DNA of 64,000 nucleotides, taken from contig NZ_LR134363.1 in NCBI RefSeq assembly GCF_900637295.1, positions 248,001 through 312,000 on the forward strand. The letters run 5' to 3'. Position 1 is the first letter of the stretch. Each line of letters starts with the position of its first letter. The notes under the pieces are model-generated. The model ran no database searches. It was given only the letters and a program-made list of their open reading frames with translations, and was not told the origin of the DNA. Positions 3,841 to 38,716 of the stretch are shown in pieces. A program made the position numbers and the translations under genes. This DNA is from Actinomyces slackii (lineage in GTDB: Bacteria > Actinomycetota > Actinomycetes > Actinomycetales > Actinomycetaceae).

Positions 3841-5694
3841 ATGACCGACCCGAGCTCCGCCGTCGCCACACCCATCGCCCTGCCCGCCGGGGAGCCCGGA
3901 CCACGGGTGGATGCTCCCTGCGGATCGGTCAGGGGACTGTGGCGCGATGTCTCCCACGCAGGCCGTCGGGCGCGCTTCACACGCTCTGCCGCCTTCTACG
4001 GGATCCCCTACGCCCAGGCGCCTGTCGGACGCCGTCGGCTCATGGCCCCGGTGCGCGCCGAGACCTGGAGTGGGGAGCTGGACGCCACCGTGCCGGGCCC
4101 CACACCTCAGAGGGAGTCAGCCTTCGAGGATCCGGCCATTCCCGAGCCGACCATGCTCGGCCAGGGCATCCTCAACCTCAATGTCTTCACCCCGGCGCCG
4201 GGGCGGGAGGCGGGCCTGCCGGTCTACGTGTGGATTCATGGGGGCGGCTGGATCTCGGGGAGCCACAACAGCCCCTGGTACGACGGCGCCGCCTTCAACC
4301 GCGATGGCGTGGTGACCGTCTCGGTGGCCTACCGTCTGGGATTCGAGGGATACGGCTGGGTGGAGGGGTCGGACGCCCCCGACAACCGGGGCGTCCTGGA
4401 TCAGGTGATGGCCCTGGAGTGGGTGCGGGAGAACATCGCGAGCTTCGGGGGCGATCCGAGCCGCGTGACCGTGGGCGGGCAGAGCGCCGGGGGAGGCAAT
4501 GCCATGATCCTGCTGGGGGTGCCGCGCGCCGCCGGCCTGCTCCACGGGGTGATCAGCGAGTCGGGGGCGGTGCCGCGGCGGGATGCGGCCACCGCCCAGC
4601 GCCACTCCCGGGATCTGGCGGCCGCCATCGGGGTGGAGGCGAGTCTGGAGGGCTTCTGCTCGGTGCCCTATGAGGAGGTCTTCACCGCCACCTTCCGCCT
4701 GGACGAGCAGGGCTCCCTGCCCGACGACGACGGGGCCGGAGCCGCTGGTCCCGACCCGGTGGCGGCGGCCCGCCGGGCGATCATGGGGGTGCCGACGGCG
4801 CCGGCCTTCGTGCCGGTGGTGGACGGGGAGGTGATACCCGAGCCGATCGAGCAGGCGCTGGCGGCTGGGGCGGGAGCGGAGGCCCCGGTGCTGGTGGGCT
4901 CGACCACGCATGAGTTCACCGTCGCGGGCCTGGCCTATGAGGAGGTCATGGCCGGCCGGGATGCGCACCAGGTGCTGGTGGAGGCGGGGATGGGGCCGGA
5001 GCTGGCGGAGCGCTACGCGGCGGCGCATCCCGAGCACGCCGATGCGCCTCACCTGCTGCTGGGGGACCTCATCTCCGATTCGACCTTCCACATGCCGCTG
5101 GTGGACTGGCTGGAGCGGCGGGAGCGAACCGCTGCGGCGGGTGAGCCGGGCACGGCAGGCGGAGTGGACGCGGCAGACGAGCCGGACGGGCCGAGCGGGG
5201 CGGGCGAGCCGGGCGGAGCGGGCGCGGCAGGCAGGGCCGCCCGGTCCTGGGCCTATGAGTTCGCCCGCCCCGGACCACTGGGGATGGCCACGCACTGCAT
5301 GGAGCTGCCCTTCGCCTTCGACTGCCTGGCCCACCCCTACTGCGAGCGCACGCTGGGAGACAGACGTCCGGGCGACGAGGCGCTGGCCGAGGCGATGCAC
5401 GCCGACTGGGTCCGATTCATCACCACCGGGGACCCCGGCTGGGAGGACTGGGGACAGCGGGGCCTGGGCCGCCGCTACGGGGATGCCCGAGGCGCCGCTC
5501 CCGAGGGGAGCACGAGAGCCGCGGCCGCGGGCTCCGGGGCCAACACCGAGGCCGACACCGCGGCTGACACCACCGGGGCGGGGGCCGGGGAGCCGGAGGA
5601 GGCCGTGATCGAGGACCTGCCCGTCTTCGCCGTCGAGCGCGAGATCCTCTACCTGAGGGCAGGGCAAGGACGTGATGAACGTGCCTATGCGTAG
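3841..5694 (+). CDS. Type-B carboxylesterase (para-nitrobenzyl-esterase-like)
   Basis: A 617-residue alpha/beta hydrolase of the carboxylesterase type-B family. Seen: the N-terminal family motif AAFYGIPYAQAPVG, oxyanion-hole GGGW in WIHGGGWISGS, nucleophile elbow GGQSAGGGNA, acidic residue region GSTTHEFTVAG, and a probable catalytic His in MATHCMELPFAFD. Two low-complexity Ala/Gly/Glu-rich insertions (about residues 425-465 and 555-585) are unusual for the family and may be flexible surface loops. There is no signal peptide, so it is likely cytoplasmic. A Shine-Dalgarno GGAGGA is well placed before the ATG. The last six codons and stop lie within the left direct repeat that borders the island. 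Confidence 0.92.
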   Translation: MTDPSSAVATPIALPAGEPGPRVDAPCGSVRGLWRDVSHAGRRARFTRSAAFYGIPYAQAPVGRRRLMAPVRAETWSGELDATVPGPTPQRESAFEDPAIPEPTMLGQGILNLNVFTPAPGREAGLPVYVWIHGGGWISGSHNSPWYDGAAFNRDGVVTVSVAYRLGFEGYGWVEGSDAPDNRGVLDQVMALEWVRENIASFGGDPSRVTVGGQSAGGGNAMILLGVPRAAGLLHGVISESGAVPRRDAATAQRHSRDLAAAIGVEASLEGFCSVPYEEVFTATFRLDEQGSLPDDDGAGAAGPDPVAAARRAIMGVPTAPAFVPVVDGEVIPEPIEQALAAGAGAEAPVLVGSTTHEFTVAGLAYEEVMAGRDAHQVLVEAGMGPELAERYAAAHPEHADAPHLLLGDLISDSTFHMPLVDWLERRERTAAAGEPGTAGGVDAADEPDGPSGAGEPGGAGAAGRAARSWAYEFARPGPLGMATHCMELPFAFDCLAHPYCERTLGDRRPGDEALAEAMHADWVRFITTGDPGWEDWGQRGLGRRYGDARGAAPEGSTRAAAAGSGANTEADTAADTTGAGAGEPEEAVIEDLPVFAVEREILYLRAGQGRDERAYA

Positions 5695-5766
5695 CGGACG
5701 TGGGTTTGCGTCATCCGACTGGGGTTAGCACAGGGGTGATTGACGCAAAGGCTCGTCCGGTACGCA
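5688..5766. repeat. 79-nt nested stem-loop element, copy 1
   Basis: TGCGTA (5688) pairs with TACGCA (5766), GGACG with CGTCC, and TTTGCGTCA (5705-5713) with TGACGCAAA (5741-5749). Symmetric internal loops of 2+2 and 4+4 nt separate the stems and a 27-nt apical loop closes them. Other copies are at 11228-11306 and 15724-15802. The left arm includes the TAG stop of the carboxylesterase. Function is unknown: a terminator, a structured RNA or a palindromic repeat are all possible. Confidence 0.75.
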
Positions 5767-5916
5767 GACCCTCGTCGTCGGCGCGGAGGCACGCCGCCGG
5801 CGCGAAGGCACGCCGTCAGCACGAAGCGGTGCCGGCCCGCTTACCGCGGACCGGAACCGCCCGAACTCGCACCGCCTGGCCTTGCGCCGAGTGGACTCGG
5901 CCTGGACCTCACAGAC

Positions 5917-5996
5917 TCACAGGGCGGAGGCCGCCGACGGCGCTGAGCGGACCGGCTCGCCCTCGGCGCGCAGGCTCAAGCCCGCCTCGCCCGCCG
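5917..5996 (-). pseudogene. Duplicated 3' fragment of clpB
   Basis: On the minus strand this reads the last 26 codons or so of ClpB (ending LRAEGEPVRSAPSAASAL and stop), identical to the intact clpB end at 11476-11555 except for one silent change. Sequence identity stops abruptly at 5996, where island-specific DNA begins. It has no start and no promoter and is a by-product of the repeat duplication. Confidence 0.9.
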
Positions 5997-6096
5997 TCAT
6001 CCCATCCTGCATCCCCAGGGAGCAAGCCTGGGAGCGCGGCACTCCAGCCGTGAGCCGCTCCAGCTAGCCAGTCGCCTAGATCTTACGAACTGACCC

Positions 6097-6140
6097 TTGA
6101 CAACATACATCGATACTCGTTAGTCTAATAACCATCGATA
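6097..6140 (+). promoter_or_regulatory. Putative island promoter and ArsR-type operator
   Basis: TTGACA at 6097-6102 is a consensus -35. A -10 candidate TAGTCT lies 18 bp downstream (6121-6126). The octamer CATCGATA occurs twice, at 6108-6115 and 6133-6140, 25 bp apart and flanking the -10. These repeats are a reasonable binding site for the ArsR-type repressor encoded at the end of the operon. Operator assignment is inference. Confidence 0.5.
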
Positions 6141-6172
6141 TATTGACTCGTTCGACTTCAAAGGAGATGACG

Positions 6173-7267
6173 ATGACGACACTGATCCCTCTCTCTGGAT
6201 TCCTCGGTGCAGGGAAGACCACCTTGATGCTCGCCGCCGCCCGACACCTCGAGAGCCAAGGCTCCCGAGTCAGCGTCATCACCAACGACCAGGGCGAAGA
6301 ACTAGTAGACACTCACCTGGCCCAGCAGGTGGACGGGATACAGTCCGTCTCCGAGATCACCGGAGGCTGCTTCTGCTGCCGCTTCGATGACCTTGTGAAC
6401 ACCCTCATGACGGTCATCGAGAACAAGCACCCTGACATCATCCTGGCTGAGGCCGTCGGCAGTTGCACGGACCTTCAGTCGACCGTCGTGCGCCCGCTGC
6501 GGCAACTTCACAGCGCACAGCTCAGCATCGCCCCTCTAACCGCCGTCGTCGATCCAGTCCGATACCGAGCCCTGTGGCGGTCCGAGGATGAGCGCGACGC
6601 CGAGTCCGATCTGGCATACCTATTCCGGCATCAGCTCGACGACGCCGACATCATCGTGATAAACAAGACCGACCTCGTTGCCGACCAGGGAACAACACTA
6701 ACCTCCGAACTGCAGAAGAACTTTCCTCACGCACAGGTCGTGGCGACCTCGGCAGCAACAGGACAGGGCGTCGAGTCCCTGGTGGCGCTGTGGAGCGCCT
6801 TCCGCCCCCAGGAGGAGCACCGCTCCTTCGAGATTGATTACGATCGTTACGGCGGCGCTGAGGCTGAACTCGCGTGGGCGAACCAGACCTTCACCACGGA
6901 CGCCAAAAATTCTGACTCGTTCCAGCCCGCGCAGTGGGCCCACACCTTCCTGACCGCCTTGGGAGAGGAGACAAGGGCTCAGGACGCCGTAGTCGGCCAT
7001 GTGAAGCTTCGCTCCCAGAACCGCGAGGGCGCCGTCAAGGCGAGTTTGACCGCTGATGAACTGGTGACCTTTGACGAGAAGCACACGCTGCCTTCAACGA
7101 GCGCCTCATGGACGCTCAACGCCCGGGTCGCCGTGCCTCCGGCGGAGATGGACAAGGCCATCTCTATCGCAGTTCTCCATGCCGATCGCCGACACGGCAC
7201 CCTCACCGGCCAACCGACTGGTGCCACCTTCCAGCCCTCCTACCCCACTCCTACTTACAGGCTGTAG
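6173..7267 (+). CDS. CobW/COG0523-type G3E GTPase (putative metallochaperone)
   Basis: A 364-residue protein. P-loop GFLGAGKTT (residues 9-17), the COG0523 metal-binding motif GGCFCC (Cys66, Cys68, Cys69), and NKTD specificity motif from Asn164. A C-terminal CobW domain begins near residue 260, where HVKLRS is seen. Family members use GTP hydrolysis to insert or traffic metals, often zinc. The ATG at 6173 is preferred over 6167 because AAGGAG (6161-6166) then has normal spacing. It is first of six co-directional genes with ArsM-, ArsI- and ArsR-like products. A role in metallating a cluster enzyme, for example the ArsI-like dioxygenase, is inferred. Its base composition is less GC-rich than the flanking core genes. 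Confidence 0.88.
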   Translation: MTTLIPLSGFLGAGKTTLMLAAARHLESQGSRVSVITNDQGEELVDTHLAQQVDGIQSVSEITGGCFCCRFDDLVNTLMTVIENKHPDIILAEAVGSCTDLQSTVVRPLRQLHSAQLSIAPLTAVVDPVRYRALWRSEDERDAESDLAYLFRHQLDDADIIVINKTDLVADQGTTLTSELQKNFPHAQVVATSAATGQGVESLVALWSAFRPQEEHRSFEIDYDRYGGAEAELAWANQTFTTDAKNSDSFQPAQWAHTFLTALGEETRAQDAVVGHVKLRSQNREGAVKASLTADELVTFDEKHTLPSTSASWTLNARVAVPPAEMDKAISIAVLHADRRHGTLTGQPTGATFQPSYPTPTYRL

Positions 7268-7336
7268 AAATTGGCGCAACCGCGTCATGATCCCGCCAGG
7301 AAACAAGTCAGGCCACCCCAACACCAAAGGAAACTC

Positions 7337-8614
7337 ATGGACACTACTTCCAATCACGGACACCTCTCCTCCCTAGAACAGTTGAGGCACGACTTTCCGA
7401 CCATCACCGCCGACAGTGACATCTATCTCGACTCCGTCGCCTCGTCGCTGACCCCCATGCCGGTTGTCGATGCGATGACCGAGTACTACACGCGATACCG
7501 AGCGAATATTCACAGGGGGACCTACGACCTCTCCATGAGAGCGTCGGAGCGTTACGAGGACGCCGTTGCCGCCGTCGCCCGGTTCATCAACGCCAGCCCT
7601 TCCGAGATCGCCTTCACCCAGAACACCACTCACGCCATCAACATCATCGCCCATACGCTCGACTTTACCCCCGGGGATGAGATCGTTCTCACGAGCATCG
7701 AGCACACCTCGAACATGGCGCCCTGGGTATCACTGGCCTCCGCCAAGGGGCTCGAGCTCAAGTGGTACAACGCTGGCCGCGACGGCATCGTCGACGCCGA
7801 GGAGCTCGCCGCCCTCATCGGCCCCCGCACCAAGCTCGTCACGATGACCGCGCTGTCGAACGTCCTTGGCACCGTCACGCCCATCGAGGCCGTCGGCAAG
7901 GCCTGTCGAGCGAACGGGACGATGTTCATGGTGGACGCAGCACAGGCCGCACCGCATGTGCCACTGGACGTCCGCCGCATCGACTGCGACTTCCTGGCCT
8001 TTTCCGGCCACAAGATGCTCGGCCCCACGGGAATCGGCGTGCTGTACATCCGTGAGGCGCTAGCCCTGGAGATGATGCCTGGCATGCTTGGCGGAGGCAC
8101 CCTCGACACCGCCAAGTGCGACTGCCCATCTCTGGAGGAGTGCAGTCTCGACTACTGCTCTTACAGCGAGTTGCCGGACAAGTGGCAGCCCGGCACTCCT
8201 CCGATCGCTGAGGCCTTCGGCCTGCATGCGGCTATCAGATACATCGAGGAAGTCGGCATGGATGTCATTGAGCGGCACGACCGCGCTCTGACATCACGAT
8301 TCATGCGATCCCTGGAGCAGATCCCCGGAATCGACATCTACGGGCCGAGCAACCCGGAGCAGCGAATGGCCGTTGTTTCCTTTAACGTCGGCGACATCGA
8401 CCCGAACGAGATCGGGCGAATCCTCAACGAGCGCTACCACATCGCTGTACGGACTGGTCAGCATTGCGCGGTCAACTACTTCAATGACGTTGCCGGGCAC
8501 CCAGGATCGTCCGGGAACGTCCGAGCGAGTTTCTACCTCTACAACACCGAGGACGAGGTCGATGCCGCGGCGTCGGCCATCTCTGAGATCAGCGCCAAAC
8601 TGATCCGTTCATGA
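7337..8614 (+). CDS. Class-V aminotransferase, SufS/CsdA-like cysteine desulfurase with Cys-rich insert
   Basis: A 425-residue PLP enzyme. N-terminal YLDSVASSLTPMPVVDAM, cofactor contacts TQNTTHAINIIAH, and Schiff-base lysine in SGHKMLGPTG (Lys226). The candidate persulfide cysteine lies in RTGQHCA (Cys377), as in group II desulfurases. Between the PLP lysine and the C-terminal domain sits an extra segment near residues 259-280 with four cysteines (KCDCPSLEECSLDYC) that ordinary SufS proteins lack. The start is the ATG at 7337, with AAAGGA before it. In this operon it could deliver sulfane sulfur to a metalloid or organoarsenical, or act in protein persulfidation. This is inference, and a different class-V activity cannot be excluded. 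Confidence 0.8.
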   Translation: MDTTSNHGHLSSLEQLRHDFPTITADSDIYLDSVASSLTPMPVVDAMTEYYTRYRANIHRGTYDLSMRASERYEDAVAAVARFINASPSEIAFTQNTTHAINIIAHTLDFTPGDEIVLTSIEHTSNMAPWVSLASAKGLELKWYNAGRDGIVDAEELAALIGPRTKLVTMTALSNVLGTVTPIEAVGKACRANGTMFMVDAAQAAPHVPLDVRRIDCDFLAFSGHKMLGPTGIGVLYIREALALEMMPGMLGGGTLDTAKCDCPSLEECSLDYCSYSELPDKWQPGTPPIAEAFGLHAAIRYIEEVGMDVIERHDRALTSRFMRSLEQIPGIDIYGPSNPEQRMAVVSFNVGDIDPNEIGRILNERYHIAVRTGQHCAVNYFNDVAGHPGSSGNVRASFYLYNTEDEVDAAASAISEISAKLIRS

Positions 8615-8627
8615 CGGGAGTGAATCC

Positions 8628-8969
8628 ATGACACGAATTCAGATCCTTGAGCGTCCCTGCTGCGGTCCGGGTCAGGGTCACAAGCTCGCTGAGTTCCTCC
8701 GCGAGCACGCATGCTGCGGCGACACCATCGAGTACATCAACCTCGAAGAGGACGGAGCGCCCACCACAGCCCTGTCTGGGGCCGTTATGTCCCACATCCT
8801 TAATGGGGCTGCACTGCCCCTTCTCGTGCGCGACGGCATCGTGGTCAGCGCAGGCTCACTGCCTAATCTTCTCGACGCAGTGGACCTGCTCGATCCGACA
8901 TCGCCTGCGACTCCGCGCACCCCGCTCCCTCTTCACCAGACCACTTCCTCCGGCTCCGGCTGCTGTTAA
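8628..8969 (+). CDS. Small CC-rich thioredoxin-fold protein, ArsD-like
   Basis: A 113-residue protein with three vicinal cysteine pairs: Cys11-Cys12 (ERPCCGPG), Cys29-Cys30 (HACCGD) and the last two residues Cys112-Cys113. The region LPLLVRDGIVVSAGSLPN matches the distal part of the ArsD arsenic metallochaperone fold (LPLLLLDG-type strand then loop). Paired cysteines suit binding of As(III) or another thiophilic metal(loid). No arsA ATPase, the usual ArsD partner, is present. It starts 13 bp after the desulfurase, with GGGAG upstream, so it is probably co-transcribed. Assignment to ArsD is by resemblance only. Confidence 0.6.
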   Translation: MTRIQILERPCCGPGQGHKLAEFLREHACCGDTIEYINLEEDGAPTTALSGAVMSHILNGAALPLLVRDGIVVSAGSLPNLLDAVDLLDPTSPATPRTPLPLHQTTSSGSGCC

Positions 8970-8983
8970 GAAAGGACCCTGCC

Positions 8984-9745
8984 ATGAACATCGATGTCTA
9001 CATTCTCAACTTCATGTCTCGGGAGGCTATCCTGGGCATCAACCACCCGGACCTGACAGAGGCGACAGTTCATAGCCTCGACCTCAATGCCGACTCGGAC
9101 CTTCCTACCGCCGTCATCCGTGCCATGTCACTACGAGGCGCTGACACCTTCCCACTGACTCTCGTCAACGGTCATGTCGTCAAGAGCGGCGTTGCGCCGA
9201 CGCGAGAGGAGATTGACTCCTGGAAGGCCCTGGGCGTCACTGAGTCCATCGCACTCGTGACCGAGGCACGATCCGCCGTAGAGTTCAACGGTGCGGCGCG
9301 CGTGCACATCAGCCTCGATGTCGCTGACGTCGCAGCCTCCATCCCGTTCTACTCGGTATTGCTTGACTGCCCCCCAACCAAGGTCAAGGACGATTATGCC
9401 AAGTTCGAGCCCGCTGAGCCCAGCCTCAATCTCAGCATCAACCAGCACGAGAAAGTCACCTCTTCGTCTGGCCACTACGGCATCCAGGTCAAGTCCACCA
9501 CGGAGGTCAGCAAGGCTCGCGAGCGTTTGGCGGCCGCTGGGTTCGCCATCACCGAGGAATCCGAGACCGCCTGCTGCTACGCCGTGCAGACCAAGGTCTG
9601 GGTGGTCGACCCGGACGGGAACATGTGGGAGGTCTTCGTGGTCACCGAGGCTGAGGCTGACGAAGGCTGCGGCCCTGACTGCATCTGCTTCCAGGAGCTC
9701 GAGCGCAGCTACGTGCAGGCATCAGAAGCACTCACCGCACACTGA
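8984..9745 (+). CDS. Fusion: ArsD-like domain + ArsI/CadI-type VOC dioxygenase
   Basis: 253 residues. Residues 1-90 resemble the ArsD fold (FPLTLVNGHVVKSGVAPTRE) but lack its cysteines. Residues from about 104 form a vicinal-oxygen-chelate domain like ArsI/CadI: metal ligand candidates are His in RVHISLDV, His in GHYGIQV and Glu in MWEVFVV. The vicinal pair Cys197-Cys198 (TACCYAVQTKVWVVDPDG) is the arsenical-binding signature of ArsI C-As lyases. A further C-terminal cluster DEGCGPDCICF follows. ArsI cleaves methyl groups from trivalent organoarsenicals using Fe(II) and O2. The start follows AAAGGA by 7 bp. The fused architecture is unusual. Confidence 0.75.
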   Translation: MNIDVYILNFMSREAILGINHPDLTEATVHSLDLNADSDLPTAVIRAMSLRGADTFPLTLVNGHVVKSGVAPTREEIDSWKALGVTESIALVTEARSAVEFNGAARVHISLDVADVAASIPFYSVLLDCPPTKVKDDYAKFEPAEPSLNLSINQHEKVTSSSGHYGIQVKSTTEVSKARERLAAAGFAITEESETACCYAVQTKVWVVDPDGNMWEVFVVTEAEADEGCGPDCICFQELERSYVQASEALTAH

Positions 9746-9769
9746 TCGGTCAGAAGGGACAGCCCAGGT

Positions 9770-10753
9770 ATGACAGCCACTGACCGCTCCACTGATCCGG
9801 CGCACCTCATCATCGACACCTACGACCGTCTCGCTGCCGGCGGCAGCAGCAACCTGTGCTGCTCGGCGGAAACAATATATTCGTCCGAGCAACTGGAGTT
9901 CCTCCCTGACGAGGTGCTGAGACTGTCCTCCGGATGCGGACATCCCATCGACGAGGCCTATATCGATGCAGGTATGACCGTCGTGGACATCGGGTCGGGG
10001 GCCGGAGCCGACTGTCTGCTTGCTGGCCTGCGGGTCGGGCCCACGGGTCATGTCATCGGCGTCGATCCGAGTCCTGCCATGCGTGAGGTCGCCGAGCGCA
10101 ACCGCGACGCGAAGAATATGCCGTGGGTCGAGTTTCGCGCGGGCACCAGCACCGCGCTCCCCATCGAAGACGGGCAGGCCGACCTCGTGGTCAGTAATTG
10201 TGTCCTGTCACTGTCGCAGGACCACGCGGGCACATGGAGGGAGATCGCTCGAGTTCTCAAACCAGGGGGCCGGGCACTCGTCTCCGACATCATCGGAGGC
10301 GGCGAGGAGAGCCTCGAGAGCAAGACGCGCTGCGAGACCGGCATCTCCTGGCCGCGTTACCGCACCCTCCTTCACGACGCGGGTCTGGACGGCCTGAGAG
10401 TCATCAACGCGAGCACCGTCCGTTTCAAGGACACCGCACTGGCAACCAGCCTCACGCTGAGCGCCAGACGAGCCACCGATAGGCCGCACTGCGCTGTCGA
10501 CGTCATCCACGACGACGCACACACTCGGGAGGCACGCGAGCTCGTGGGAAGGTTGGGTGCGAGTTCCCGGGATGCCTCAGCGCCCACCGTCGAGGTCCGA
10601 CTCCTGAGTATGACCGCTCGGGGAGACCGCGACATCATCGCACTGATCGCGGACGGGCAGCCCCAGGCTCCGTTGACCATCTTCACGGACGGTGCGAGAT
10701 CAGCACGGTTGAGCCTCATCGCCCCAGCACCGCCGCCAGGTCGTGATGTCTAG
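9770..10753 (+). CDS. arsM: ArsM-like SAM-dependent arsenite methyltransferase
   Basis: 327 residues. SAM motif VVDIGSGAGADCLLA near residue 71, then GVDPSPAMREVAERN. Features of ArsM are an N-terminal vicinal pair Cys30-Cys31 (SSNLCCSAE), SSGCGHPID, the strand VVSNCVLSLS with an in-motif cysteine, and RCETGISWPRYRTLL. ArsM methylates As(III) using these conserved thiols. Beyond the methyltransferase core (after about residue 235) is an extension of roughly 90 residues with one further cysteine and no recognised domain. The substrate might be another metalloid such as selenium or antimony, but the cysteine layout favours arsenic. The start follows AGAAGGGACAG. Its end overlaps the long form of arsR. 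Confidence 0.78.
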   Translation: MTATDRSTDPAHLIIDTYDRLAAGGSSNLCCSAETIYSSEQLEFLPDEVLRLSSGCGHPIDEAYIDAGMTVVDIGSGAGADCLLAGLRVGPTGHVIGVDPSPAMREVAERNRDAKNMPWVEFRAGTSTALPIEDGQADLVVSNCVLSLSQDHAGTWREIARVLKPGGRALVSDIIGGGEESLESKTRCETGISWPRYRTLLHDAGLDGLRVINASTVRFKDTALATSLTLSARRATDRPHCAVDVIHDDAHTREARELVGRLGASSRDASAPTVEVRLLSMTARGDRDIIALIADGQPQAPLTIFTDGARSARLSLIAPAPPPGRDV

Positions 10754-11174
10754 TGAGGAATCATCACGCCATGATCAGTCGGATCCCTGCATACTTGACT
10801 GTATGACGCTCTCACCGCCAACTGAGCTCGAGACGGACTCGGCGGAGGCCTCCGAGGACAGATTCGCGACCCTCGCCACCACAGCGCGGGCGCTCGGCGA
10901 CCCTGTCCGTCTCGCAGTGTTCACCTGCATCGCCTCAGCCTCAACAGAGATCTGCGTGTGCGACATCATCAACTCCTGCGGTCGCAGTCAGGCAACGATC
11001 AGTTATCACCTCAAGAAACTGCGAGAAGCCGGCCTCGTCGTTCCCCGCAGAGAGGGCACGTGGATCTGGTATCGGCTCAACGAGCCCGTCTTCAAGCAGT
11101 TCAGGGACGCAGTGGCATCTCTGACCTCCCGGTCCGCCACAACGACACAGGATCCCACATGCTGCACTTCCTGA
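10746..11174 (+). CDS. arsR: ArsR/SmtB-family metalloid-responsive repressor
   Basis: Winged-helix ArsR protein: ALGDPVRLAVFTCIA, the metal-site motif EICVCDI (CxC at the start of the DNA-binding helix region, as in type-1 arsenite sensors), and recognition helix CGRSQATISYHLKKLREAGL. It ends in DPTCCTS, adding a vicinal pair. Two starts are possible. The ATG at 10746 (142 residues) overlaps arsM and adds a CILDC segment. The ATG at 10803 gives 123 residues and lies in a small dyad CATAC-N6-GTATG (10790-10805). It is last in the cluster and probably regulates the promoter near 6100. Confidence 0.85.
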   Translation: MSSEESSRHDQSDPCILDCMTLSPPTELETDSAEASEDRFATLATTARALGDPVRLAVFTCIASASTEICVCDIINSCGRSQATISYHLKKLREAGLVVPRREGTWIWYRLNEPVFKQFRDAVASLTSRSATTTQDPTCCTS

Positions 11175-11227
11175 CGCAGGGGTTGGGCCGAGGGGTACGC
11201 CCGGCGGCTGGCGAATGAACGTGCCTA

Positions 11228-11306
11228 TGCGTAGCGGACGTGGGTTTGCGTCATCCGACTGGGGTTAGCACAGGGGTGATTGACGCAAAGGCTCGTTCGG
11301 TACGCA
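11228..11306. repeat. 79-nt nested stem-loop element, copy 2
   Basis: Same structure as 5688-5766. The one change in the stem region (C to T in CGTCC, giving CGTTC) leaves a G-T (G-U in RNA) wobble pair, so the fold is kept. It sits between arsR and the convergent clpB, where a terminator would be expected. Confidence 0.75.
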
Positions 11307-11475
11307 GACCCTCGTCGTCGGCGCGGAGGCACGCCGCCGGCGCGAAGGCACGCCGCCGGCGCGAAGGCACGCCGTCAGCACGAAGCGGTGCCGGCCCGCT
11401 TACCGCGGACCGGCACCGCCCGAACTCGCACCGCCTGGCCTTGCGCCGAGTGGACTCGGCCTGGACCTCACAGAC

Positions 11476-14145
<2,670 letters not shown>

Positions 14146-14198
14146 GGTTGTCTCCCTTGGTGGTGACGGCTGGTATCTGGACACTCCAACCTACGCAG

Positions 14199-34801: not shown

Positions 34802-36264
34802 GGCTCTTCGTGTTTAGGGGTGTAGGAGTTTTTTCCTGAATCCTCCGGCGTGGATGAGGCTGCGGGTGGTGTAGTGGGTCAGGTTGCGAAAGCCCAGGGC
34901 GATGCCGCGCAGGTGCTCGAGCCTGCCGTTGATAGCCTCGGTGGGGCCGTTGGAGGCGTGGGGGTGGTCGAAGTAGGCCAGGATGTCGTGGCGGCGCTTG
35001 CGCAGGGTCCGACCGAGCTCGGCCAGTTCGCCCAGGGCCTGGGGGACACCGGTGCCAAGGGTGTCGATGATCTTGGTCATCAGGGCCTTGCCGGCGGCGG
35101 GGGTCTTGGCGCGGTAGGCGGCGATGATCCGCTGATAGGCGCTCCAGGTGGCTTCCACCGCGGCGTGACGCTCATCGGCGAACACGCCCTCGAGGCGATC
35201 CCAGGCCTTGTCGGTCAGCAGTCCCGCCCCGGTGCGCAGCAGTCTGCGGGCCTTGTACAGGGGGTCGTTCTTGCGGCCTCGGCGCCCGGTGGTCTGGCGC
35301 TGGAGGCGCTGACGCGTGCGATCGAGCTTATCGCCGGCCAGGGCCACCACGTGGAAGGGATCCATGACCTCGGTGGCGTCGGGCAGGGCCTGAGCGGCGG
35401 CGCTCTTGAACCCGGTGAAGGCGTCCATGGCCACCACCTCGATTCTGTGGCGGAAGGCCTCGTCCTGTCCTTCGAGCCAGTCCTTGAGGGCCCGCTTGGA
35501 CCTGCCAGGGACCATGTCCAGCAGCCGAGCGGGACCGGTGCCCGTGCGCACGGGGGTCAGGTCGATAACGACGGTGACATACCTATCGCCCCTGGCGGTG
35601 TGGCGCCAGGCGTGCTCATCAACCCCGATGACCTCCACGCCCTCCAGGCGGCCGGGGTCCTCGAGCAGCACCTGCTGGGCCCTGGACAGGATCGAGCTGT
35701 TGGCGGTGTGCCAGGCCACCCCCAGAGCCTTGGCGATGCGCGACACGGACATGAACTCCGCCCCCAGGGCTCGCATCCCCCAGTCCACCGCCGACCACGT
35801 CAGCCTGGAGCGCTTGGCGGCGACCCGGGCGGCATCCTGCCTCCACACCCGGCGGCACGGCGCGCAGGAAAAGCGCCGCAGGCGCACCACCAGCTGTGTG
35901 GGGCGCCACCCCACCGGCAGATGGGCCAGACGACGCGAGACGGTGCCCACAGCCACCCCCTGAGCCCCGCAGACCCGGCAGAAGGGATCCTCCAGGCTGA
36001 CCGCCAGGCGGCACTCCACCACCGCCCCATCGTCCTGCAGGCGCTGGCCCACCGCCCGCAGGCCCAGGGCCTCCAGCCCCAGGAAAGTGGTCAGATCAGC
36101 AGCGGTGAAGGTAGTGTCAGCCATGTCGAGGTCCTCGCAGATGGGTTGTCTAAGCAGCTCCCATCATCAGAGGACCTCGACCCCTACCCCAGCAACGACG
36201 CACCCCCACCACACACAATCACACCAATAACCCCCACCTACCACACCCCTAAACACGAAGAGCC
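34802..36264. mobile_element. ISL3-family insertion sequence
   Basis: A 1,463-bp element with terminal inverted repeats of 24 bp (GGCTCTTCGTGTTTAGGGGT at the left and its complement at 36241-36264, one mismatch in 24). It holds a single transposase gene on the minus strand and is flanked by ACTAAAAC direct repeats. Ends and target duplication are intact and the transposase is full length, so it may be active and recently inserted. Confidence 0.93.
34814..36124 (-). CDS. ISL3-family transposase
   Basis: 436 residues. An N-terminal zinc-binding region (FCRVCGAQG and CAPCRRVWRQDAAR) is followed by a helix-turn-helix (SVSRIAKALGVAWHTAN). The DDE catalytic core has Asp in EVIGVDEHAW, Asp in VVAMDAFTGFK and Glu in NGPTEAINGRLEHLRGIALGFRN. 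These motifs and order are those of DDE_Tnp_ISL3 enzymes. Length is normal and no frameshift is visible. Confidence 0.95.
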   Translation of the reverse strand: MADTTFTAADLTTFLGLEALGLRAVGQRLQDDGAVVECRLAVSLEDPFCRVCGAQGVAVGTVSRRLAHLPVGWRPTQLVVRLRRFSCAPCRRVWRQDAARVAAKRSRLTWSAVDWGMRALGAEFMSVSRIAKALGVAWHTANSSILSRAQQVLLEDPGRLEGVEVIGVDEHAWRHTARGDRYVTVVIDLTPVRTGTGPARLLDMVPGRSKRALKDWLEGQDEAFRHRIEVVAMDAFTGFKSAAAQALPDATEVMDPFHVVALAGDKLDRTRQRLQRQTTGRRGRKNDPLYKARRLLRTGAGLLTDKAWDRLEGVFADERHAAVEATWSAYQRIIAAYRAKTPAAGKALMTKIIDTLGTGVPQALGELAELGRTLRKRRHDILAYFDHPHASNGPTEAINGRLEHLRGIALGFRNLTHYTTRSLIHAGGFRKKLLHP

Positions 36265-36272
36265 ACTAAAAC
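36265..36272. repeat. Right 8-bp target-site duplication
   Basis: ACTAAAAC, identical to 34794-34801. It contains the stop codon (TAG on the minus strand) of the next membrane gene. Confidence 0.92.
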
Positions 36273-37036
36273 GAAAAAGCTTGCAACCTATCCGGATTAC
36301 TCATAATATCCAAAAAACACTCCAACACTACTGGCGCCCACGACAGAACGATGAGCATCATCAGAAAAAGCATAATAACAGCCCCGAAGAAACCCGCCAT
36401 AATATTAGCCCTCCCCCTCAATGCACTCATCCAGTAATCGGCAAGTCGACGCCTCACCCTATCACAAACTACGCCACCCAGTGGTCGAAGAGCACGTTCA
36501 ACACACCCACGCCGCTCCACCTCCGATGCGCGGACAACATCAACAGCCAGCGCACCGACGACATAAAGCAATCCGAAGAAAAATGCTAACATCGCAGGCC
36601 AGTGAATTCCAGTCATCGCAAGCCCCGTAAGGCGCGGTCCGGGATCCTGCAAAATGGACGCTCTCTGCACATCAACACTAAGTAACGCCCCCCAATACGC
36701 ACCAATTCCCAGCATCAGCGCCCCAAAAACAATGCGACAAAGTTGATTCACCCGGAATACAAGCGCGCTTTGTAACGCCATTGACGGCCGCGGCGGCAGT
36801 AGGTACCCTAACATCAAAAATAAGATTGCCTTCAATAATAACCACAGGATCATGAGAATCATCGAGAATCCCGCAAAAAAGAGGCCAAACACCCCGCCGA
36901 AGCCCGCCGTCAATGCCGCAAATACGATGCCGCAGAAAATGTATGCCCACACCCAGAAGGATCGCCAAGAAAGAGTGCGCACACCACCCACAGCAGTCTT
37001 CCATGCACTTCTCAGAAAATCAGCGCAACTATCCAT
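36266..37036 (-). CDS. AT-rich multi-spanning membrane protein, unknown
   Basis: 256 residues. About six hydrophobic helices, including SFWVWAYIFCGIVFAALTAG, a Phe-rich segment GLFFAGFSMILMILWLLLKA and the C-terminal ANIMAGFFGAVIMLFLMMLIVLSWAPVVLE. A short cytoplasmic loop before it is basic (CVERALRPLGGVVCDRVRRRL). The ATG at 37036 follows [16 protein letters not shown] here is clearly richer in A and T than the rest of the window, with codons such as ATA, AAA and TTT, which suggests recent acquisition. The stop codon lies within the IS target duplication, so the insertion did not alter the protein. No family was recognised. Confidence 0.65.
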   Translation of the reverse strand: MDSCADFLRSAWKTAVGGVRTLSWRSFWVWAYIFCGIVFAALTAGFGGVFGLFFAGFSMILMILWLLLKAILFLMLGYLLPPRPSMALQSALVFRVNQLCRIVFGALMLGIGAYWGALLSVDVQRASILQDPGPRLTGLAMTGIHWPAMLAFFFGLLYVVGALAVDVVRASEVERRGCVERALRPLGGVVCDRVRRRLADYWMSALRGRANIMAGFFGAVIMLFLMMLIVLSWAPVVLECFLDIMSNPDRLQAFSF

Positions 37037-37239
37037 ATCTCCTTCTCCTTCCAATCCGATACGACGATCTTGAACAAGGTATCTCAAGGCTCCGACATGA
37101 ATGAGTTTCGCTTCATGGCTCGCAGCCCTTCGCATCCGGACATCAACGCTTGGCCGCGGCCGGAGCGATAGGCGGTCCTGCCAGGATCGATCCAGCCGAA
37201 GCCCCACATAGGCGATGCTGGCCCGCGCTGCAACGACGA

Positions 37240-37389
37240 GGAGGTGATCTCGCCGCCGCGCAGATCGTTGCCGTCACCGGTGAGCACGACGCCATCCCGG
37301 TCATCAAGGGCGACTACTACGACTTTCGCAGCGATCACATCCTCGGCTGCAGGATCCAGCGCCGTGTGGTCTTCCGCGAGCGGGCATGA
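37240..37389 (+). pseudogene. Remnant fusing pieces of a phosphodiester glycosidase and a GtrA gene
   Basis: The frame reads EHDAIPVIKGDYYDFRSDHIL, nearly the NAGPA core EHDAILAINGDYYGFRSDGIL of 32343-32430. It passes directly into CRIQRRVVFRERA and stop, nearly the C-terminus YLIQRRVVFREKA of the adjacent GT2-GtrA gene. Both pairs of genes lie next to each other upstream, so a duplicated pair that suffered a large internal deletion explains it best. Upstream sequence to 37037 shows no recognisable gene. Confidence 0.8.
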
Positions 37390-37444
37390 ACAGGACGAGG
37401 CGCCCGGGCAGGGAGTAACGGCCCGCAGCCCGCTCTGCTGGATC

Positions 37445-38716
37445 TCACGGACGCAGGGCTGACAAGGGACAGGTGATGACACCGTCATCACTGACGAGGG
37501 TCGGCCCCGTGCCTGTGACCACAAGGATGAAGGAAGGCTCTCCCTCAAGGTCGGTATCGATTCCGGCAACAGCCTGCGCAGCAGAGGCCATACCTGCTGG
37601 CACCTGGCCACCGCCGAGCTTGACCTCCACAGCAGCCCACCGTCCCCCGGGAAGAGTGATGACCGCGTCGAGCTCCCTGCCATTGGAGTCCCGATAATGA
37701 TGGACCTGGCCGCCCAGCGCAGAGGCGTAGACCAGCAGGTCATGGACTGCCGCGCTCTCGAAGAGGAACCCCGCAGTGCGGACATCGGCACGCAGGGCGC
37801 TGCGATCGGCGCCGAGCGCAGCGGACGCCAGCGCCGGATCAGCCAGGTGCAGCGTGGTGGAGGTGCGCAGCCGCGCACGCGACCTCAGGCCAGGTGCCCA
37901 GGCGCCGACTCGCTCCACCACAAAGAGACTCTCGAGCAATTCCAGGTATGAGGAGACCGTCTCCGGGCGGATGCGCGGGGCGATGCCCTCCAGGTCCGCT
38001 GCGAGTGCCGATACCTTGGCCTCGCTGGCACTGCGCCGTGCGAGCGAGCGGATCAGCCGGCTGACGACCCTGGGAGAGTGCCGGATCGATGCCAGGCGAG
38101 GAAGATCAGCTCGAGCGATATCGTCGAGATACCCACTCATGGCGAGAAGCGAGTCCGATGCCTCGAGGTTCCTCAGCGCGGGGAAGCCCGAGCGCAACAA
38201 CCGGTCAATCACCTCGTCGTAGTCCAGGGTGTCCCACGCCGGGCGCGGTCGATCTCCCTCGAATAGGCCCTCCAGACTCACCTCTCCCGTGGATTCGCCG
38301 CGTTCCCACCAGGACATGGTGCGCATCCTCAACCTCAGGAATCGCCCCGCGCCCGTGTGCCTAGTGACGTCATCGGCAGGCACGGAGGAGCCGGTCAGGA
38401 TGAAGCGACCGCGACGGGAGTCGCGATCCACTGCACGGCGCACGAGGTTCCACAACTCTGGCGCAAGCTGCCACTCGTCGAGCAACCGTGGGCTCTCCCC
38501 CTCCAGGAGCGCCGACGGCATGACACTGCCCAAGGAGGCGGTTTCCTCATCATCGAGGAAGGCGTAGGACTGCGCGGAGTGGAGACCTGTCATGGTCTTG
38601 CCGCAGCCACGCGGCCCCTCGATGAGGACCGCCCCGGCCACGCGCAGACGGCGTTGAAGGTCGCCATCGACGGCACGCGGCAGGTAGTCGTGCCCGAGCA
38701 CGGATCGCGTGTCCAC
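37445..38716 (-). CDS. AAA-type ATPase with C-terminal DUF4143 domain
   Basis: 423 residues. P-loop EGPRGCGKTMTGLH (about residues 33-47), Walker B LLDEWQLAP and sensor region RFILTGSSVP define the N-terminal AAA domain. The DUF4143 domain (about residue 205 on) has FPALRNLEASDS and near its C-terminus the nuclease-like strands GQVHHYRDSNGRELDAVI and WAAVEVKLGGG (D-x-V-I / E-V-K pattern as in PD-(D/E)xK folds). Function of the family is unclear, with roles in DNA or toxin systems suggested. The GTG start at 38716 has AGGAG at 38723-38727, which is part of the first repeat unit. Confidence 0.88.
   Translation of the reverse strand: MDTRSVLGHDYLPRAVDGDLQRRLRVAGAVLIEGPRGCGKTMTGLHSAQSYAFLDDEETASLGSVMPSALLEGESPRLLDEWQLAPELWNLVRRAVDRDSRRGRFILTGSSVPADDVTRHTGAGRFLRLRMRTMSWWERGESTGEVSLEGLFEGDRPRPAWDTLDYDEVIDRLLRSGFPALRNLEASDSLLAMSGYLDDIARADLPRLASIRHSPRVVSRLIRSLARRSASEAKVSALAADLEGIAPRIRPETVSSYLELLESLFVVERVGAWAPGLRSRARLRTSTTLHLADPALASAALGADRSALRADVRTAGFLFESAAVHDLLVYASALGGQVHHYRDSNGRELDAVITLPGGRWAAVEVKLGGGQVPAGMASAAQAVAGIDTDLEGEPSFILVVTGTGPTLVSDDGVITCPLSALRP

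Follow-up and report, generated by a model that had tools for sequence, protein, structure and literature searches.

A rare and conserved arsenic gene module with a divergent cysteine desulfurase in Actinomyces slackii

What does an arsenic operon do that carries genes for methylation of arsenic, for cleavage of carbon-arsenic (C-As) bonds and for a cysteine desulfurase, and no gene for an arsenite pump? This question is raised by a locus of Actinomyces slackii, whose genome is a single contig of 3.22 Mb. The window analyzed here is a stretch of 64,000 nucleotides of this contig (NZ_LR134363.1, positions 248,001 to 312,000), and all coordinates without further label refer to it. Six co-directional genes, all on the + strand between about 6167 and 11174, were found where the initial annotation had placed them, and the identities it had given (COG0523 GTPase, SufS-like protein, small CC protein, ArsD-like/ArsI fusion, ArsM and ArsR) stood. 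The gaps between the genes are small, as it had described (13-69 bp), and ArsR overlaps ArsM by 11 bp if a GTG start is used. The genes are:

6167 (or 6173)-7267, + strand: COG0523/CobW-type GTPase with the motif GGCFCC (PF02492)
7337-8614, + strand: SufSx, SufS-like cysteine desulfurase (PF00266) with a cysteine-rich beta-latch insert (C261, C263, C269, C274) and catalytic Cys377
8628-8969, + strand: P3, small ArsD-like protein with RPCCG near the N-terminus and a terminal CC
8984-9745, + strand: fusion of a cysteine-less ArsD-like domain, an ArsI C-As lyase domain and a CGxDCxC tail (PF06953, PF00903, NF041414)
9770-10753, + strand: ArsM-like arsenite methyltransferase (by PDB matches)
10743 (GTG) or 10803 (ATG)-11174, + strand: ArsR repressor with a CVC motif and a C-terminal CC (NF033788, HTH_5)

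The CobW queries used below start at 6170, one codon past the first ATG.

The module is real, rare and conserved. For its working we propose a tentative reading, to which we give somewhat less than an even chance: an acquired, ArsR-controlled module in which arsenic would be carried and modified inside the cell and thiolated via SufSx, and not expelled by a dedicated arsenite pump. For the distribution of the genes, an alignment of the window GTPase with five plasmid copies was compared with species genomes and the best 80 of 363 relatives were kept, so that sets without such a CobW protein, or with one ranked lower, are missed. Two full sets besides the window were found among these 80 loci, in Saccharothrix obliqua and Actinomadura barringtoniae. 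In all three, sufSx, P3, fusion and arsM are adjacent and ordered alike, with cobW nearby. The refuting condition of the initial annotation, that the order would occur nowhere else, was thereby passed in part. The exact six-gene order, for which it had proposed a search, was not seen again, as cobW and arsR change position: Saccharothrix shows arsR-sufSx-P3-fusion-arsM with a divergent cobW, and Actinomadura sufSx-P3-fusion-arsM-cobW with no adjoining ArsR-like gene. Chance assembly is rejected, since SufSx, P3, fusion, ArsM and CobW recur jointly in two other genera, and by this recurrence the desulfurase is a genuine member of the set.

Best-segment identity to the window (Saccharothrix/Actinomadura) is highest for SufSx (71/67%), with 62/61% for the fusion, 52/48% for ArsM, 51/47% for CobW and 39/32% for P3. 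Flanking the Saccharothrix set are a gene of the phosphate-transporter family, one resembling low-molecular-weight-phosphatase (LMWP) arsenate reductases and one for an ArsR protein joined to an ArsN1-like acetyltransferase; the Actinomadura set is surrounded by unrelated genes. Plantactinospora and Allorhizocola hold fusion, ArsM and CobW, with the P3-like domain fused to an unknown domain, and Allorhizocola also holds a SufSx (55%) 6-7 kb away. At strict E-values SufSx was found in 0 of 35, 1 of 341 and 0 of 397 genomes, the single match being the genome of locus L049 (shared 31-mers). Of 296 genomes of the phylum, one gave a CobW match at E 1e-40, its own. Among 394 genomes of the class, the fusion finds its own copy at 8.7e-169 and the next best at 2.1e-28, the level of plain ArsI. 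Plasmid carriage was rejected: none of the 120 plasmid records matching the fusion covers 80% of it, P3 has no plasmid match, and SufSx has none at E 1e-100, the best plasmid SufS among the matches listed being 42% identical. Scans of viral contigs with fusion and CobW gave no relative; a phage collection was not searched. The module is not described in the literature searched, which covers few subscription journals, and neither CobW nor a desulfurase is mentioned in the accessible part of PMC12159101.

SufSx is the distinctive part of the module. It matches Aminotran_5 (PF00266) with 404.8 bits and the curated SufS model TIGR01979 with 399.9 bits, below the cut-off of 475.1, and its PDB matches are SufS type II cysteine desulfurases (5xt5 and others); its identity to SufS of this type is about 40%. 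That it is the host housekeeping SufS was rejected, as it is only 35-36% identical to the host copy. Four module copies of SufSx were aligned with nine ordinary SufS proteins (eight SufS-like proteins from plasmid records and the host's own). All four carry a 10-residue insert directly after the glycine-rich loop, in the beta-latch hairpin, where the window protein reads CDCPSLEECSLDYC. Three cysteines of this latch insert (C261, C269, C274) occur in every copy, and a fourth, C263, in three of the four; the window protein has them all. In addition, 4-6 extra residues lie shortly past the catalytic cysteine in every SufSx (4 after Cys377 in the window). None of the nine ordinary proteins shows the latch insert, the extra residues or any cysteine in that hairpin. 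The lysine binding pyridoxal phosphate (K226) and the catalytic C377 align with those of all nine.

The beta-latch (residues 256-266 in E. coli SufS), or beta-hook (253-265 in B. subtilis), builds part of the active site of the neighbouring subunit, guards the persulfide and aids acceptor docking, and type II desulfurases require an acceptor because of their short transfer loop (PMC10011822 and PMC4934914, accessible parts). When the latch is perturbed, an outside reductant can take the sulfur (PMC10011822, accessible part). The differences of SufSx at the latch and after the catalytic cysteine are therefore expected if its sulfur has a different acceptor. Judging from the gene company, this acceptor would be arsenic, or P3. 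Trivalent arsenic (As(III)) binds three cysteines. The thiolated metalloid suggested by the initial annotation thus becomes a more concrete proposal, since SufSx is altered at the very site of sulfur delivery.

P3 has no Pfam or NCBIfam match. The seven best Foldseek matches of its predicted fold are all ArsD, and a profile search with P3 recovers annotated ArsD. Cysteines 11-12 and the terminal CC are present in all three P3 proteins, with no third N-terminal cysteine nearby. The fusion matches Glyoxalase PF00903 with 49.4 bits and ArsD PF06953 with 27.3 bits (cut-off 27; residues 43-89), and its ArsI domain reaches 138.5 bits with the ArsI/CadI model NF041414 (cut-off 116). H108, H164 and E216, which we take to be the metal ligands, and C197 and C198, presumably the vicinal CC pair of ArsI, are invariant in all five fusions. 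A fusion of ArsD-like and ArsI-like parts had been proposed before and is present, but its ArsD-like half is cysteine-less, and the cysteine-bearing ArsD-like protein is the separate P3. In the loci L076 (5338-6315) and L051 (5099-6157), an unknown domain of about 215 residues is fused to a P3-like ArsD domain ahead of the ArsD/ArsI fusion. The same domain stands alone beside SufSx in L076 (15103-15804). It has cysteines near a VDH.GIDL/IEFAFG pattern and appears VOC-like by eye; it gave no Pfam match.

The GTPase is likely to be an arsenic hand-over GTPase. It matches cobW PF02492 with 103.6 bits (cut-off 20.7) and its GGCFCC holds the CxCC motif. Twenty plasmid records cover 80% of it, and six of them were opened. 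Five of these regions are arsinothricin-type (two Priestia, Enterobacter, Pantoea and Alicyclobacillus), and their arsenic-linked GTPases are 36-39% identical to that of the window over the full length. An annotated radical S-adenosylmethionine (SAM) gene with an RCCLKC tail, of ArsL type, was found in four of the five; the Enterobacter region shows ArsM and an aquaporin and no ArsL in view. In the sixth region, from Leptolinea (GTPase 27%), no arsenic gene was seen. Among the best 80 of 363 loci, ArsL is nearby in 28, detected by tblastn with the Priestia protein, and an ArsM-like gene in 34. A small CC protein adjoins the GTPase in the Bacillota-type arsinothricin clusters; kinship with P3 is unsupported, as the aligned identity is 14-21% and the P3 profile misses these proteins. 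A quick tree of 86 GTPases places the window protein with that of Saccharothrix (SH-like approximate likelihood ratio test, SH-aLRT, 95). The five fusion-bearing loci do not form one clade (3 changes); a single origin is still possible.

Several other observations were made around this subfamily. It has other contexts too, seen in three loci (L078 9152-11650, L068 9089-12772 and L108 6338-7693): its neighbours there are a molybdopterin oxidoreductase accompanied by ArsR and ArsC-like genes, GH116 glycosidases, or a gene of URO-D methyltransferase type together with a small CxxC protein. In the actinobacterial ArsL loci L038 (6702-7970) and L040 (6751-7992), a protein of about 400 residues with VCCG and a C-terminal CC lies between ArsL and GTPase; the L038 copy gave no Pfam match. 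ArsL, GTPase and ArsM occur together in a metagenome-assembled genome of the Actinomycetales (L041, 653-4912), whose isolate name suggests an animal oral sample. On a contig labelled Sphingomonas (L079), ArsL, aquaporin and the small CC gene share 95-97% identity with a Priestia plasmid, so that it is either a mislabelled contig or a recent transfer.

The best NCBIfam model for ArsM is the arsenite methyltransferase NF008823 with 157.9 bits, below its cut-off of 263, and the five best PDB matches are arsenic or arsenite methyltransferases. C30, C31, C56 and C188, some of which we take from general knowledge to bind arsenic, are invariant in the three module copies. ArsR matches HTH_5 with 41.7 bits and HTH_metalloreg NF033788 with 83.9 bits (cut-off 55). 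Its two best PDB matches are arsenic-responsive or ArsR repressors, and with its CVCD motif and C-terminal CC it is, by sequence, a repressor with arsenic-type cysteines. Upstream of cobW the following pair of boxes was found:

6109..6140, + strand: pair of ATCGATA boxes 25 bp apart, candidate ArsR operator

The pair did not occur in 100 shuffles, the motif having been picked after the sequence was read, and it is a possible ArsR operator. It did not appear in the upstream stretches that were read for the Saccharothrix and Actinomadura sets; for the former only a TCGATATCGA was seen. A simple consensus search gave no promoter-like site, and Rfam no family in the window at gathering score.

The arsenic module without a known arsenite pump that the initial annotation described holds for the operon and, within the searches made, also for the whole genome. 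PF02040 (ArsB) gave no match in the genome, and TIGR00832 (Acr3) only a single match of 38 bits against a cut-off of 282.8; in the controls they were detected in 6 of 14 and 7 of 14 genomes, respectively. These genome-wide pump searches covered ArsB and Acr3; ArsA, ArsC, ArsP, ArsJ and ArsK were not searched. The Priestia ArsL query gave no match in the genome at E 0.001, in a search that had no positive control. SufU, SufE and SufBCD are not found in the operon.

The surroundings of the operon point to its origin. The guanine-cytosine (GC) content is about 61% at 6-10 kb and about 70% across most of the window, and direct repeats flank this island on both sides:

5675..5996, + strand: left direct repeat, 322 bp, consisting of a dispersed hairpin element, a spacer and a duplicate of the final 80 bp or so of the clpB-like open reading frame (ORF)
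11215..11555, + strand: right direct repeat, 341 bp, entering the 3' end of the clpB-like ORF
11476-14184, - strand: clpB-like ORF, identified by eye from the translation
3841-5694: esterase-like ORF, by eye

The repeats are 93-97% identical by segment, and their sole length difference is 19 bp, by which the right copy is longer. As the right copy enters the 3' end of the clpB-like ORF, the left copy contains a duplicated tail of this gene of about 80 bp. In the same-genus genome G156 the site is empty: about 430 bp separate the counterpart of the sequence left of the island (window positions up to 3663) from the clpB-like gene (window positions from 11478). Four same-site regions were fetched (G156, G149, G170 and G191), and none contains any of seven window proteins, namely the six of the operon and that of ORF 3841-5694; G149 and G170 carry 3-5 kb of different DNA at this place, and the G191 stretch does not match the left flank. 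The fusion is present in only 1 of 200 family genomes, its own. From this distribution and the empty site, the island is a lineage-specific, horizontally acquired one, which we infer was inserted by recombination. An imperfect palindrome of about 100 bp lies within both repeats (5676-5780 and 11216-11320), with a fold z-score of -2.3 and many partial copies in the genome; it belongs to a dispersed repeat family, as a query containing it gave 66 matching rows there. A second low-GC stretch was seen at 34814-38000 (59.7% at 36-38 kb), beside a transposase-like ORF (34814-36124, by eye).

For the tentative reading, we propose the following course. Arsenite would lift ArsR, and P3 would take up As(III) and pass it to ArsM, with the CobW-type GTPase in the role of ArsA. 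ArsM would methylate the As(III) it receives, and SufSx would draw sulfur from cysteine. As(III) or its methylated form, held on the three invariant latch cysteines near the persulfide of the partner subunit, may then act as sulfur acceptor or as trigger of its release, giving thiolated arsenic. Methylation followed by cleavage is a futile cycle unless one of the enzymes acts on what escapes from the next step. The ArsI domain may cleave methylated As(III) (MAs(III)) that is not passed onward, so that ArsM and ArsI would act as a balance. We tentatively take ArsI to be a safety valve for MAs(III). The narrower claim that SufSx is a dedicated arsenic sulfurtransferase, where latch-bound arsenic receives the persulfide of the partner subunit to form thio-arsenicals, and that P3 and GTPase form a delivery pair resembling ArsD and ArsA, of a type also at work in arsinothricin producers, is unlikely as it stands.

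Several points weigh against the tentative reading. Its chemistry as a whole is deduced from sequence and gene content, and its pump-free part covers ArsB and Acr3. The best Foldseek E-value of P3 is only 5.8e-3, so that no match reaches 0.001, and a SelW-like chain equals ArsD in Z score. ArsD has an N-terminal cysteine pair with a third cysteine and a C-terminal CC, and P3 appears to lack a third one of this kind at its N-terminus. No ArsL, ArsM, ArsI or SufSx gene was found near 42 of the 80 GTPase loci (at least one in 38), so the subfamily is not confined to arsenic. SufSx is known from only four loci, and its predicted structure is poor, with a predicted local distance difference test (pLDDT) of 58.6 and below 50 in the latch. 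The latch cysteines could instead be structural or bind another metal.

It is possible, though rather unlikely, that the operon serves defence against organoarsenicals, with ArsI destroying MAs(III) or aromatic arsenicals of neighbours, ArsM venting As(III) as methylarsines and SufSx acting as an arsenic-tolerant desulfurase for iron-sulfur (Fe-S) repair or thiol supply, without any arsenic-sulfur product. ArsI is known to confer resistance to MAs(III) (PMC6205960, accessible part); here its domain scores above the curated cut-off with metal-ligand positions and CC pair kept in five fusions, and SufSx retains the catalytic residues of SufS. However, the operon has no SufU, SufE or SufBCD, ordinary Fe-S work needs no change of the latch, and ArsM would regenerate the toxin that ArsI clears. 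We consider it quite unlikely that the genes instead make an antibiotic-like organoarsenical, kin to and distinct from arsinothricin. The GTPase common to arsinothricin-type clusters and the three flanking genes of the Saccharothrix set speak for such a product, but no ArsL was found in the genome or near the Saccharothrix and Actinomadura sets, the sole C-As-forming enzyme of the set is ArsM, and the Actinomadura set lies amid unrelated genes.

COG0523 proteins handle many metals, a single family model covers ArsI and CadI, and selenocysteine lyases and cysteine desulfurases have a common fold, all of which would suit a module for another soft element (antimony, selenium, cadmium or lead) with arsenic incidental. 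Such a use is very improbable, since ArsM, ArsR, ArsI and an ArsD-like protein in one operon point to As(III) or Sb(III), and among the plasmid GTPases opened, the closest full-length ones belong to arsenic clusters.

The formation of thio-arsenicals is usually ascribed to a chemical reaction with sulfide. The cysteine-rich latch of SufSx hints that these bacteria may add sulfur to arsenic rather than export it. If this is true, an enzyme that joins sulfur to arsenic would add a new step to the arsenic cycle and a new use of cysteine desulfurases. The presence of one GTPase subfamily in both the module and arsinothricin-type clusters also offers a testable explanation of how toxic As(III) reaches the enzymes that use it, in this case in a cell without ArsB and without a recognised Acr3.

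Compared with known systems, the module shares with the arsinothricin clusters (arsQML; Galvan et al., 2021; PMC8552651, accessible part, which does not mention GTP) a related GTPase, ArsM and a nearby ArsR, and with those of Bacillota a small CC protein beside the GTPase. In contrast to them it has no ArsL and no ArsQ, and the clusters examined have neither SufSx nor the ArsD/ArsI fusion; that it is an arsinothricin cluster was rejected, as ArsL was not found in the genome. With arsRDABC operons it shares ArsR, an ArsD-like protein and a P-loop NTPase. CobW and ArsA are akin as P-loop NTPases. Those operons combine the metallochaperone ArsD with the ATPase ArsA and a pump; the module has a COG0523 GTPase in place of ArsA, and genes for methylation and a desulfurase but no pump. 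The whole catalytic domain, the metal-ligand positions and the CC pair are like those of the C-As lyase ArsI (5c4p and relatives, which we take to be TcArsI), whereas the N-terminal cysteine-less ArsD-like domain and the C-terminal CGxDCxC tail are different. SufSx resembles SufS type II in fold family, PLP lysine, catalytic cysteine and overall identity, and differs by the latch insert with 3-4 cysteines, the extra residues and an operon without SufE or SufU. By its regulator and enzymes, the module thus belongs to the ars operons and is neither a pump operon nor an arsinothricin cluster. What appears new is a P3 whose predicted fold best matches ArsD, a GTPase subfamily that also occurs in arsinothricin-type clusters and a SufSx distinct from the host SufS; P3 and GTPase would work like a delivery pair of the ArsD/ArsA type, joined to methylation and sulfur-transfer chemistry.

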